DNA of 53,383 nt, taken from positions 1 through 53,383 of the forward strand of contig JACSRX010000009.1 of NCBI GenBank assembly GCA_014879535.1. Direction: 5' to 3'. The notes under the pieces are model-generated. The model was given only the letters and a program-made list of their open reading frames with translations, was not told the origin of the DNA and searched no databases. Made by a program: the position numbers and the translations under genes. The DNA is from Chthoniobacterales bacterium. Its GTDB lineage: Bacteria; Verrucomicrobiota; Verrucomicrobiia; Chthoniobacterales; JACTMZ01. This document shows positions 26,676 through 53,383 of this stretch, one piece after another; the first letter of the stretch is position 1; every line of letters starts with the position of its first letter.

Positions 26676-28967
26676 TCAATCCGGCAAGGGAACGAGTTCC
26701 GCGTGCTGCCCCGTGATGAAGCCTTTGAGCTCCGCGCCTGCGGCATGGAACGTGGCGATGACGGCCCCGCATTGCTGCTGGTCGAAGATCTCGGCACCCG
26801 TGGCGTCGAGGCGGCCGCGAAGCGCCGGTTCGCCGCTGCCATCGCGGAACGGATCGGCGGCCGCGACAATGATGGCCCGGGGCCGGACGGCCTCAAGGAA
26901 CTCGGAGGTGGCGAAGATGTCGTCTCCGTGGCGCCCGAGAACGAGGATGTCGGCACGGAGGTCGCGGGCGCGGAACTCCAGAAGATGCTGTTCGGTGGCC
27001 AGCCCGGCATCCGACATGAGCAACACCCGGAATCCGTTCGTGTCGATACGGATGGCCACCGCTTGGTCGTCGGAAACGCGGGCCTTTTGTGCGGGGCTCG
27101 GGGTCAGAAGGACGAGGGAGGAGCCGTCCCCCAGCGTCACGCGGTCCCCGGGCAGGATCAGCCATTTCGGCTGGCTCCGGGCGCGGAGCAGGTCATGGAC
27201 CGCCTTGCGGGCGGGCGAGCGGTCGCGCAGCACGGAGTCGAGCACGCGCCGCGGGGGGTTGGATGCCAGCACTCCGGGAGCACCGCCGACATGCTCGTTG
27301 TCACCGTGGGTGAGGATGAGTCCGTCGAGACGGCCGACCCCTGCGGATCGCAGGGCGGGCTCGATGATGCGGGCGAAGTCGTAGGCTGTTCCGCTGTCGA
27401 TGAGCCATGCCTTGTGTGGTGTGCGCAGCAATTGCGCGCCACCGGTTGCCAGATCGAATACGGTCAGGCGCGCAGGCGGCTGCATCCATCCGGGGGGCAT
27501 GTGGAACCATGCGCCGGGCAGCGCTGCGGTCCATTGGACGCCCGCGAGAAGCGCGGAAGCCAGACCCCAATTCGTGTGGTTGAATACAGCGGCCAGCCAC
27601 GTGCTGAACAGTCCGCCGACGATGGCCAGCATGGACACGCTGAGAATGGCGAAGGCGACAGGCACGGCGAGCAGGTTGACCGGCACGGCAAGCAGGGGCA
27701 CGAGGTGGAACAGCATGATCGTGAGCGGGAGGCTCCCGACCCATGACGATGTCGAGACGGCGAGGGCAGCAGCTGCCATTCGGCCTGACGAGGCCTGGGA
27801 ACGCTGCCACCGAGTGAAAAGCTTTTGGGGAATGAAGGGATCCGGCCGCAGGCGGACGGCGAGCCAACGGTCGAGAGGCTGGGCAAGCAGGATGATGGAC
27901 GCGACCACGCAGAAGGAGAGCTGGAAGCCCGGCTGGAAAAGCTGGTTGGTGTCGATCCCCAGCAGGACGAGCGCGGCGGCCGCCAAGCTGTTGCCTGCGG
28001 CCGGCGCACGGTCGAGGAGGAAACCTCCGAGTGCAATGGCGATCATTGTCGCCGCGCGGAGGCTCGAGGGTTTTGCCCCCGTGACGAGCGAATAGAAAAA
28101 CAGAAGGGGTATGATGACGAGGATTGCCTGGTGGCGGTTCAGGCCCAACGGACGCAGCACGAACCAGAGCAGAAGCCCGAACATGCCGACATGCAGACCG
28201 CTCACGGCAAACAGGTGCAGTGTTCCGGTCTGCCGGAAGGCGGGAACAAACTCGTCGGCGCCGTCGTCGCGGGCCCCGAGTGTGATTCCTGCGATGACAG
28301 CGCGGATCCCCGGGTCCTGTTCGAGTCCGAGCCCGAGCGTGCGCATGATCCAATCGCGCGTGGCGAGCGCGGCAGCCTTGATCGAGGATCCCCGGTCTCG
28401 GGCGAGAAGCCGGGAATCCTGAGGATATCGGGATCGCAGTTCGAGGAACACTCCCTGCCTCGCCAACCACGCCGCTGCATCGAAGGCCCCTGGATTTCGG
28501 GGGGCACGCGGACGCTCGACGACGCCTTCCACGGTCCACCGGTCCCCGTAGCGGGGGATATCCTCGCCCCGCCAGCGGACCATGATCGTCTGCTCCATGG
28601 CGAAGGTCTGTGTGTCGAGGTTCCATTCTTCCGTGCGCATCCTCGACCGCCACGCATTGCCCGTCTGGACCGGTTCATCGAGGAGGACGCCGGTGACCCG
28701 GGCGGAGTTCGGTGCGGCGGCATCCGCCCAGAGGCGTGCCGGGGCATCCTGCCACTGCCAGGCATGGACTGCCGCGAACGCCCCCGCGGTTGCGAGGACG
28801 GGGGAGATCCATCCGCCGCGCCACAGCATCCGCAAGAGGGCGGCCGCGGAAATGCCGGCTGCGAGCAGGGGCTCGGGGGCGAATCGGTCCGCGATCAGGA
28901 TGCCTGCCACGGCGCTCAGGGCCATTCCTGCCAGCGGCAGGCGCGACGGCGCAGCGGGATTGGTCAT
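26676..28967 (-). CDS. comEC: ComEC/Rec2-family DNA uptake channel
   Basis: 763 residues from the ATG at 28967. In order: an N-terminal hydrophobic region and DUF4131-like OB domain, a central competence domain with many helices ('FRQTGTLHLFAVSGLHVGMFG' is the hallmark, quoted in part), and a C-terminal metallo-beta-lactamase-like domain with 'LILTHGDNEHVGG' (metal motif THxDxxHxGG with Asn at the second Asp position). ComEC transports single-stranded DNA across the inner membrane, so natural transformation is possible here. That is relevant to the integron at the right edge. Full length suggests it is functional. Confidence 0.92.
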   Translation of the reverse strand: MTNPAAPSRLPLAGMALSAVAGILIADRFAPEPLLAAGISAAALLRMLWRGGWISPVLATAGAFAAVHAWQWQDAPARLWADAAAPNSARVTGVLLDEPVQTGNAWRSRMRTEEWNLDTQTFAMEQTIMVRWRGEDIPRYGDRWTVEGVVERPRAPRNPGAFDAAAWLARQGVFLELRSRYPQDSRLLARDRGSSIKAAALATRDWIMRTLGLGLEQDPGIRAVIAGITLGARDDGADEFVPAFRQTGTLHLFAVSGLHVGMFGLLLWFVLRPLGLNRHQAILVIIPLLFFYSLVTGAKPSSLRAATMIAIALGGFLLDRAPAAGNSLAAAALVLLGIDTNQLFQPGFQLSFCVVASIILLAQPLDRWLAVRLRPDPFIPQKLFTRWQRSQASSGRMAAAALAVSTSSWVGSLPLTIMLFHLVPLLAVPVNLLAVPVAFAILSVSMLAIVGGLFSTWLAAVFNHTNWGLASALLAGVQWTAALPGAWFHMPPGWMQPPARLTVFDLATGGAQLLRTPHKAWLIDSGTAYDFARIIEPALRSAGVGRLDGLILTHGDNEHVGGAPGVLASNPPRRVLDSVLRDRSPARKAVHDLLRARSQPKWLILPGDRVTLGDGSSLVLLTPSPAQKARVSDDQAVAIRIDTNGFRVLLMSDAGLATEQHLLEFRARDLRADILVLGRHGDDIFATSEFLEAVRPRAIIVAAADPFRDGSGEPALRGRLDATGAEIFDQQQCGAVIATFHAAGAELKGFITGQHAELVPLPD

Positions 28968-29031
28968 CGTTGCGGTTGTAAAAGCAGAGGCCGCTTCCCG
29001 CAACCCTCGCGGCCGGAGGGCACCGGCCGGG

Positions 29032-51307: not shown

Positions 51308-52183
51308 ATGAGGCCCGGTGCCATCACACGTTTGCTTGCAGGAGGAGTCCTGTGGGCGGTTGCGGCCGGCGCCGCGCTGGCCGAGGGGCGTATCGAATCC
51401 ATGGAGGTCGCCTCGGACGATCCGGCCATCCCGTCGCGGGAAGTGCGTGTCTGGCTGCCGCCGGGCTACGATGGGGACGGCGACGGGCGTTACCCGGTGA
51501 TCTATTTCCACGACGGCCAGAATGTGTTCCGCCCGGGAGGACCCTTCGGCTGCTGGCTCGCGGAGGATGCCGCGACGGAAGAAATCCGATCCGGCCGCAT
51601 GCGCAAGGCGATCCTTGTGGCGGTGGGCAACAACCCCGCGGATTTCGGAAACGCCCGCATCACCGAATACCAGCCGCCGGGGGATTTCAATCCGCGCAAT
51701 CCCTCACAGCCGGAGGGCCGCTGTGATCGCTATGCCGAATTCCTTCTCGGCAAAGTGAAATCCGCCATCGACGCCAGATACCGGACGCTGCCGGACAAGG
51801 ACAATACCGCCGTCGCGGGCTCGTCGATGGGCGGGCTGGTCTCGCTCTGGCTCGGCCTCAACACGGAGGCCTTCGGATCAGTCGGGGTGTTTTCCCCGGC
51901 ATTCTGGACGAGTCCGAACTTCATGGACGCGGTGATGTCCGGAAAGAAAAAGCCAGGGCTGCGGATTTACATGGACATGGGCACGAAGGAGACGGGCAAC
52001 ACCCGTGGGGATTACTGGGAGGATGCGCTCGCTGTCCGCGCAGCGCTGCGGAAGCAGGGGTGGGCTGAAGGTGAAGACTTACTGTGGAACCCGGGGGAAG
52101 GGGACGAGCACAACGAGAAAGCCTGGGCGCGCCGCCTGCCCGTGGCGCTCCGGTTTTTGCTGCCACCGGATCAGGGCGACTGA
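51308..52183 (+). CDS. Secreted alpha/beta-hydrolase, esterase D/Fes-like
   Basis: 291 residues. Signal peptide (MRPGAITRLLAGGVLWAVAAGAALA). The alpha/beta-hydrolase fold shows 'SREVRVWLPPGYDGDGDGRY', 'PVIYFHDGQNVF' and the nucleophile elbow 'VAGSSMGGLVSLWLG' (GSSMGG), with a C-terminal His in 'GDEHNEKAWARRLP'. It belongs to the esterase PF00756 family (putative esterase/IroE/Fes). It could hydrolyse sugar esters or siderophores. A GGGCAAG stretch precedes the ATG. It is the last gene before the integron. Confidence 0.87.
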   Translation: MRPGAITRLLAGGVLWAVAAGAALAEGRIESMEVASDDPAIPSREVRVWLPPGYDGDGDGRYPVIYFHDGQNVFRPGGPFGCWLAEDAATEEIRSGRMRKAILVAVGNNPADFGNARITEYQPPGDFNPRNPSQPEGRCDRYAEFLLGKVKSAIDARYRTLPDKDNTAVAGSSMGGLVSLWLGLNTEAFGSVGVFSPAFWTSPNFMDAVMSGKKKPGLRIYMDMGTKETGNTRGDYWEDALAVRAALRKQGWAEGEDLLWNPGEGDEHNEKAWARRLPVALRFLLPPDQGD

Positions 52184-52235: not shown

Positions 52236-52333
52236 CTGCGAACGTCCGCGATCACCGGTGCTCACCCGTGGCGCGATCCGTGGCGGGAGCGGAGCGACCA
52301 AGCACGGAGCGTGATGCGGGTGAGCGTTCGGGG
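52236..52333 (-). other. Candidate distal attC-like site / long inverted repeat
   Basis: On the minus strand CCCGAAC (near 52327-52333) and GTTCGC (52238-52243) frame ~98 nt that fold in two ways: a perfect 9-bp GCTCACCCG/CGGGTGAGC stem with inner CCGTG/CACGG, or ATCAC/GTGAT with CCGC/GCGG. CCGAAC pairs with GTTCGG, which begins the cassette immediately upstream, as an attC should. The spacing does not fit the classic attC model as well as the site at 52709-52766. The 52184-52352 interval holds no gene. Confidence 0.4.
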
Positions 52334-52352
52334 ATCGCATTGCTCGGCATTC

Positions 52353-52703
52353 TTATCGCATGAATGCTACGTAGGCAATCCGGACTAGAATTAGTGAGAA
52401 AGGGAGAAGTAGAATGTAGCTTGAATATCTCAACCAAGATCTGGGGATTCCCTTCTGAAAAGCGACCACAATCCCGAGGTAAAGAAAACTGATCGAAGAA
52501 ATAGCGACGGTAAGGAAGGCCAAGAAGATTAGAAATATATTTGCGGAAAATCCTGCGCCGCCTTCGTTGGGAACATGACCACCGTAGATATAATCGGTGT
52601 AAAAATAGTTTCCCGCAGCGGCTGCTAACGTAAGGGCAGATAATCCGCAAAGAACTAGCAACCCTAGTTCAATTAAAAGCTGCGAATGCCTGGAATCGTT
52701 CAT
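52353..52703 (-). CDS. Integron cassette 2: small membrane protein
   Basis: 116 residues with three to four hydrophobic helices (e.g. 'LLIELGLLVLCGLSALTLAA', 'NIFLIFLAFLTVAISSISFL', 'YILLLPFSLILVRIAYVAFM'). AT-richer than the rest of the window. The ATG lies 11 nt inside the cassette after TTCGGC, with no Shine-Dalgarno. No family recognised. Gene orientation and position within 52243-52714 fit a single-gene cassette. Membrane proteins of unknown role are common cargo in chromosomal integrons. Confidence 0.6.
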   Translation of the reverse strand: MNDSRHSQLLIELGLLVLCGLSALTLAAAAGNYFYTDYIYGGHVPNEGGAGFSANIFLIFLAFLTVAISSISFLYLGIVVAFQKGIPRSWLRYSSYILLLPFSLILVRIAYVAFMR

Positions 52704-52708
52704 TTTAT

Positions 52709-52766
52709 GCCGAACGTCATTCAGCAGCCGCGCGCGAAGCGCGTTGGCTGACTGAACTGGTTCGAT
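52709..52766 (-). other. attC recombination site of cassette 1
   Basis: Minus strand: R'' ATCGAAC, then 11 nt to GCC, a central short hairpin with GCGC arms, GGC then 11 nt to R' GTTCGGC. The inner arms pair as TTCAG-t-CAGCC with GGCTG-CTGAA, leaving one unpaired T on the first arm, where canonical attC sites keep their extrahelical base. R'' is the exact complement of the GTTCGAT at cassette 1's own 5' junction. Total 58 bp. The cleavage point is between G and TT of GTTCGGC. Confidence 0.8.
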
Positions 52767-53169
52767 TTTTTATTTTGGTGATCTTAGGCCAGAATACACA
52801 AGTTAAAGCCAGAAGAATCCAGGCGGCATTTCCTACATATCTCCAAGCGGCAACTTCGCGGGTATCGTTCAAATAGGTATGCATGGCGGCCGATCCGGCC
52901 AAGAAAAGCAATGAAAACGAAAGAACGAGGGATGGAATAATCAGCGCTGGATATAAAATAGGGCTCCTCCATGCAATGATTCCCGCGAGTGCTGGAATAA
53001 TAATAAAATTGATCTCCAGTGGGGCTAAGGAGTCGCAAATGTAGTAAAAGGGAGGTAAAGGCTTGCCCTCGTATAAATCTGAAATCAGCTCGCAACCCGA
53101 ATTCAGAAGAAATAGCCCTGAAAGCGTTAGAAGTGCAATCAGAACGCTTGATGTGGCTTTCGAAATCAT
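52717..53169 (-). CDS. Integron cassette 1: four-helix membrane protein
   Basis: 150 residues with four hydrophobic stretches ('VLIALLTLSGLFLLNSGCEL', 'INFIIIPALAGIIAW', 'LYPALIIPSLVLSFSLLFLAG', 'GNAAWILLALTCVFW'). The last residues (SSVSQRASRAAAE) and the stop codon are encoded by the attC site itself. The ATG lies 13 nt inside the cassette; a three-codon frame ATG-AAG-ATA-TGA in front of it ends in an ATGA overlap with the start. No family recognised. GC content is clearly below the chromosomal background. Confidence 0.62.
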   Translation of the reverse strand: MISKATSSVLIALLTLSGLFLLNSGCELISDLYEGKPLPPFYYICDSLAPLEINFIIIPALAGIIAWRSPILYPALIIPSLVLSFSLLFLAGSAAMHTYLNDTREVAAWRYVGNAAWILLALTCVFWPKITKIKNRTSSVSQRASRAAAE

Positions 53170-53175
53170 ATCTTC

Positions 53176-53182
53176 ATCGAAC
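53176..53182 (-). other. attI-type recombination junction
   Basis: G/TTCGAT on the minus strand marks the insertion point between the integrase-proximal sequence and cassette 1. It is the counterpart of the attC R'' box ATCGAAC at 52760-52766. The remaining attI sequence would be in 53183-53236, which contains no gene. Direct repeats for accessory integrase sites are not obvious. Confidence 0.6.
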
Positions 53183-53215
53183 GTATTTTAGAATGATATG
53201 TGGATTTATTGGGAA

Positions 53216-53231
53216 AGCATGATATCATGCT
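53216..53231. promoter_or_regulatory. 16-bp perfect palindrome upstream of the integrase gene
   Basis: AGCATGATATCATGCT is its own reverse complement and ends 5 nt before the integrase ATG. The position is right for an operator controlling the integrase or for protein binding in attI. It does not match the enterobacterial LexA box (CTG-N10-CAG). Confidence 0.5.
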
Positions 53232-53236
53232 AAACC

Positions 53237-53383
53237 ATGAAGACAGACACCAAAAGTCATGCGGTGAAGGTGTGGGAAGATCGTTGGGCGCGGTTTGCGT
53301 TGGGATTGGCCCGCCGTGGGGTCGATCCGCAGAAGCACGAGTTCTGTCGTGCCTGGGTGCGCGGGTTTGTGGCTTTCATAAAG
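53237..53383 (+). CDS. intI: Integron-integrase-like tyrosine recombinase, N-terminal fragment
   Basis: 49 codons open to the window edge, MKTDTKSHAVKVWEDRW..., with 'ARFALGLARRGVDPQKHEFC' and 'RAWVRGFVAFIK'. The pattern of aromatic and basic residues (W..RF...L.R.GV...K..FC.AWVR.FV.F) resembles the N-terminal SAM-like arm-binding domain of IntI from PVC and other environmental integrons. The catalytic domain lies outside. Its position, divergent from the cassettes and next to the attI junction, is what an intI gene should have. The identity rests on this short stretch plus context. Confidence 0.6.
   Translation, partial: MKTDTKSHAVKVWEDRWARFALGLARRGVDPQKHEFCRAWVRGFVAFIK

Follow-up and report, generated by a model that had tools for sequence, protein, structure and literature searches.

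The right end of the window, by which we mean the whole 53,383-nucleotide stretch analysed (the entire contig C59 of a 97-contig, 3.17 Mb draft genome of a Chthoniobacterales bacterium), raises the question of whether it carries a chromosomal integron and, if so, which integrase would operate it. The original prediction had placed here a fragment of an integron integrase gene (intI), an attI junction, two minus-strand gene cassettes and an attC site, all of which are present where they were predicted. The features, in window coordinates, are as follows.

51308–52183, plus strand: esterase-like gene, the chromosomal flank outside the integron, within a PriA-MenC-MenA-esterase block
52237–52348, minus strand: attC of cassette 2, 112 bp, 36.0 bits, E 2.2e-7, the final site of the array
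52243–52714, minus strand: cassette 2, with R' GTTCGGC at 52709–52715 and R'' GCCGAGC at 52342–52348
52353–52703, minus strand: cassette 2 gene, an open reading frame of 116 aa
52709–52766, minus strand: attC of cassette 1, 58 bp, 46.8 bits, E 2.8e-10, scored with a model built without it
52715–53181, minus strand: cassette 1, 467 bp if excised
52717–53169, minus strand: cassette 1 gene, 150 aa, whose final codons extend into the attC
53176–53236, no strand assigned: attI and intI leader region, with the junction ATAC|GTT (G of GTT at 53182 on the minus strand); predicted site
53217–53230, no strand assigned: 14-bp palindrome GCATGATATCATGC, directly upstream of the intI start
53237–53383, plus strand: 5' end of intI, 49 codons (MKTDTKSHAVKVWEDRW...GFVAFIK), frame intact and open at the contig end

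The GC content is 45% in the cassette block, compared to 62% over the window and 66% in the DNA directly upstream, in agreement with the AT-richer block noticed earlier. The 112-bp attC, which the original prediction did not include, closes the array and is related to the final attC of the array on contig C15. As intI begins 54 bp from the first cassette, a CALIN, i.e. an attC cluster without an integrase close by, was rejected. The ATAC|GTT motif of the junction is common to seven other loci in the genome, and its position beside intI together with its conservation across the eight loci mark it as a putative attI. In the leader, ATGATATCAT occurs once in the window compared to 0.01 expected, and also precedes the intI start on C15; the core of the palindrome is common to the C15 copy. 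The palindrome is a possible candidate for an operator, a role on which we place little weight. A scan of the cassette strand for the sigma-70 consensus gave no match, although such scans miss promoters of other types.

The attC sites were assessed with a covariance model made from nine sites on other contigs (C15, C38 with four, C24, C46, C1, and C93), which were aligned and modelled on the classical stem arrangement with the window sites left out. Searching the window with such a model had been proposed as a check on the original prediction; both sites were recovered with the scores listed above, whereas the next best match in the 53 kb reached 13.0 bits (E 0.29), and a chance origin of the two matches is excluded. 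Over all eleven attC sites, 85% of the pair cells are formed, compared to 66.8% in shuffles, and 39 cells carry double-sided changes, compared to 13.2 in shuffles. The pairing signal is lost when the partner is slid by one to three columns, a control that is partly circular because the structure was drawn by eye from the same sequences; a stronger argument is that 12 of the 13 inner-helix pairs have changed on both sides. The sites show R''/R' and L''/L' pairing, extrahelical bases and a variable centre. An Rfam search gave no attC match. The attC sites in the window are 86–89% identical to the C15 and C38 sites and one covariance model covers them, in a comparison made within this genome only; such within-genome similarity has been named as a hallmark of chromosomal integrons (PMC9668308).

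A second layer of evidence comes from the relation between the two ends of each cassette. The 58-bp site is confirmed at 52709–52766, and its R'' box ATCGAAC (52760–52766, minus strand) matches at every base, as had been claimed, the complement of GTTCGAT, which opens its own cassette (R', 53176–53182, minus strand). The R'' of cassette 2 is complementary to its own R' at six of seven bases. Among the 11 cassettes of the genome in which the relation was read, it is perfect in nine and six-of-seven in the other two; random re-pairing of the R'' and R' boxes gave a mean of 1.5 perfect pairs and never nine in 100,000 trials. Complementarity of R'' to the R' of the same cassette is the mark of circular cassettes, and it is found here. 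A two-gene cassette on C15 (L009:1372–2442), with genes of 133 and 218 aa and no attC between them, is spanned by the exact complements GTTAGAC and GTCTAAC.

The gene to the right of the array was predicted to be the 5' end of an integron integrase. Its frame is homologous to the start of a complete paralogue on C38 (469 aa, gene at L011:1983–3392), which scores 429 bits against the NCBIfam integron integrase model TIGR02249 (cut-off 265); the right-hand gene therefore belongs to the IntI family. Residues 154–467 of the C38 protein align with Vibrio cholerae IntI4 (PDB 2a3v; E 1.7e-82), its best structure match, and cover nearly the whole chain without a break, with all catalytic residues kept. 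A second intact frame, of 406 aa, terminates contig C70 (L023:5560–6780) and is cut off from its start by the contig end. In both proteins the catalytic R, K, HxxR, H, and Y could be read, as well as the IntI-specific region (alpha-I2, or patch III). The catalytic residues that the original prediction expected beyond the right-hand edge are therefore present in the C70 and C38 frames; the window itself holds 49 codons, which are linked to C70 by synteny as described below. That the gene instead encodes a Xer- or phage-type tyrosine recombinase, the hairpins being ordinary interspersed repeats, would fit the recurrence of related GC-rich hairpin sequences in the genome. However, the IntI-specific family model is passed, 2a3v is the best structure match, and the hairpins terminate one-gene units whose own R'' and R' boxes correspond, and follow one another behind attI-like junctions. 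We regard the chance of such an explanation as negligible. The anatomy, the attC sites and the IntI identity of the paralogues are strongly supported.

The intI in the window is truncated solely by the end of the contig, and its continuation would lie on another contig. There are two candidates for C59 and C15, namely C47, which carries a frameshifted intI relic, and C70, which is intact. C47 opens with exactly the last 49 bases of C59, and four other intI genes in the genome are decayed (C15/C47, C93, C24, and C5/C88). These observations would suit an integron that is dead in cis, in which intI runs into the C47 relic and the array is an orphan that only another integrase could mobilize. However, C59 and C15 end in the identical 49-bp sequence, and in seven congeners the NupC gene flanking C15 directly adjoins the flanking gene of C47, so that on the simplest reading C15 joins C47 and C70 is left for C59. 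We therefore consider death in cis improbable, and the window intI most likely continues into the intact C70 frame, a join that we infer from synteny with good confidence. About 17 bp are absent from the assembly at this join, and the preservation of the frame across the gap is presumed from the C47 relic. In the congeners G003 and G010, the esterase (C59 side) and a MidA-like gene (C70 side) point towards each other on a single contig, as would be expected from the join; their separation of about 22 and 43 kb, respectively, means that some rearrangement would be required.

The genomic setting bears on whether the element is sedentary or a recent arrival. The flank is an ordinary chromosomal block of core genes, PriA-MenC-MenA-esterase, colinear with G003. 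Recent insertion of a mobile integron, on a transposon or plasmid, could account for the AT-rich cassettes and for the lack of an array behind the esterase gene in both G003 and G010. Against this stand the colinear flank, the similarity of the attC sites to the sites in other arrays of this genome, and the lack of a transposase among the frames listed for 47–53 kb, the C70 side having been covered in part; we give a recent mobile origin only a slight chance. The window end is therefore, with a probability of roughly 0.93, a chromosomal (sedentary-type) integron with two cassettes. This reading draws on direct observations, i.e. the anatomy, the attC structure with compensatory changes, the R''/R' relation, the ordinary chromosomal neighbours, and the presence in the genome of intact IntI frames with all catalytic residues. 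The original prediction of a chromosomal integron is thus supported, since the right-hand gene is a tyrosine recombinase gene of the IntI family and the attC scores stand well above background.

Elsewhere in the genome, attI-like ATAC|GTT junctions start cassettes at at least eight loci (C59, C15, C38, C83, C24, C93, C46, and C5), and about 24 attC sites with E < 0.05 were found on about fourteen contigs, in a census that passed through a first-look filter of the genome search. Contigs break inside arrays, so that some contigs without an attI may belong to the eight loci. Two intI genes are intact, on C38 and on C70 (assigned to C59); beside the C83 and C46 junctions none was recognised. The two intact integrases are about 52% identical and each is closer to an IntI of another organism, the C70 protein being sister to two IntI from Verrucomicrobiota records; a recent duplication was rejected on these grounds. 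This sister relation is the best evidence for a host in Verrucomicrobiota, a likely placement that it supports weakly, as integron integrase genes are able to move between lineages. Related genomes of the order also contain scattered attC sites and IntI. A DNA search of ten congeners for the C38-type attI and intI leader found none, indicating that attI loci of this type are not shared at the DNA level. In the congener G002, contig C23 (L186:1–3200) has the same layout, with an IntI of long N-terminus and diverging cassettes, the first of which resembles by eye a type I signal peptidase gene.

Both intact integrases (C38 and C70) contain a second core-binding (SAM-like) domain ahead of the usual one, and the 49 codons in the window encode the initial part of this extra N-terminal domain. 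Residues 46–109 of the C38 protein match the Pfam integrase SAM-like domain PF13495 at 29.7 bits (cut-off 27), and a profile built from 21 extra-domain regions aligns with that of the usual core-binding domain at E 9e-12 (hhalign). The AlphaFold model of the extra domain has a mean pLDDT of 82, and of about 90 or more over the first 80 residues. Its best VIA-align match is the core-binding domain of 2a3v (chain residues 5–103; Z 12.5, rmsd 3.1, 98 residues aligned), followed by the core-binding domains of Xer, Cre, and lambda Int. A Z of around 13 is not enough by itself where helical bundles are compared, but the top of the list is a single domain type and the sequence tests concur; Foldseek gave weak matches, with a best E of 0.35. 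Taking Pfam, hhalign and VIA-align together, we conclude that the extra domain is a core-binding domain.

Among 80 related IntI from named records, a sample skewed towards carriers, the query itself having the domain, 30 possess the extra domain, 48 lack it and two are undecided. On a quick tree of the other IntI domains the trait needs two changes, compared to 25.5 in shuffles, and it sits to one side of a supported split; the sole exception, L104, has an in-frame stop within its translated match range. On this tree, which has no fixed root, the distribution may reflect gain or loss of the domain. By record title, some of which are doubtful labels, carriers belong to Pseudomonadota, Thermodesulfobacteriota, Nitrospirota, Nitrospinota, and Verrucomicrobiota. 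A literature search that covered few subscription journals returned no description of an N-terminal extension or additional N-terminal domain in IntI. The double core-binding domain is the least familiar feature of the system and the one worth following.

The cargo was expected to lack known families, and this holds: neither cassette protein has a significant match in Pfam, NCBIfam or PADLOC. Both the 150-aa and the 116-aa protein contain about three hydrophobic segments. No clear relative of either was found in 212 other genomes of the order, with one marginal match, and a plasmid search with the 150-aa protein only gave no significant match. Other cassettes of the genome carry genes for GYF_2, DUF4279, and HTH proteins, and matches to SLBB and GIY-YIG fall slightly under the cut-offs; a cassette gene on C5 (L056:1857–2408) combines an HTH domain with a weak GIY-YIG nuclease match just under the Pfam cut-off. 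Any function of the cassettes can be proposed only weakly. A competence channel in the window had been suggested as a possible source of incoming cassettes. The gene is real, encoding a full-length ComEC-like protein (26676–29003, minus strand; PF03772), but there is no evidence tying it to cassette uptake.

A plausible mechanism follows the established integron scheme. IntI, transcribed rightward, would recombine attI at 53182/53181 with the folded single-stranded attC of a circular cassette as it comes in, and the newcomer would land beside intI with its gene on the minus strand, as seen. Cassettes could also be excised by attC x attC recombination. A promoter in the attI/intI region, for which the support is weak, may drive the two resident cassettes. 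IntI is presumably active, and decayed neighbouring arrays may be served in trans. Integrase-less arrays are mobilisable in this way (PMC12444791). A more speculative extension, which we hold only tentatively and think doubtful, is that the window integrase is a member of a deep clade, spread across phyla, whose integrases have two core-binding domains in tandem, that the extra domain alters binding of attI or folded attC, and that in this genome a pair of such integrases acts in trans on many dispersed attI sites, making up a distributed integron. Any function assigned to the extra domain is likewise weakly supported.

Verrucomicrobiota are among the phyla with reported integrons (PMC8618304), and a 2008 study described genomes with several intI genes, along with pseudo-integrons that arise by duplication (PMC2426708). 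With integrons in the phylum, multiple intI and decayed intI already reported, the element in the window is not new in kind. Like the sedentary chromosomal integrons of V. cholerae and Xanthomonas, it has an intI divergent from the array, an attI between them and one-gene cassettes ending in attC hairpins, with attC sites that are alike within the genome and some arrays beside a decayed intI (PMC9668308, PMC12444791). What sets the genome apart is that, in place of a single main array, many short ones are spread over at least eight attI loci, and that a further core-binding domain is present in its integrases; 2a3v has one such domain, whereas C38 and C59/C70 have two. The two intact and four decayed intI genes resemble the multi-intI and pseudo-integron genomes, but here the intact pair are not recent duplicates, in contrast to the duplication-derived cases (PMC2426708). 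In summary, the integron system of this bacterium, which lies outside the usual model groups, appears to be intact and combines divergent integrases with many short arrays. As many integron integrases have a second core-binding domain, a possible role of the domain in attI or attC specificity is open to direct test.
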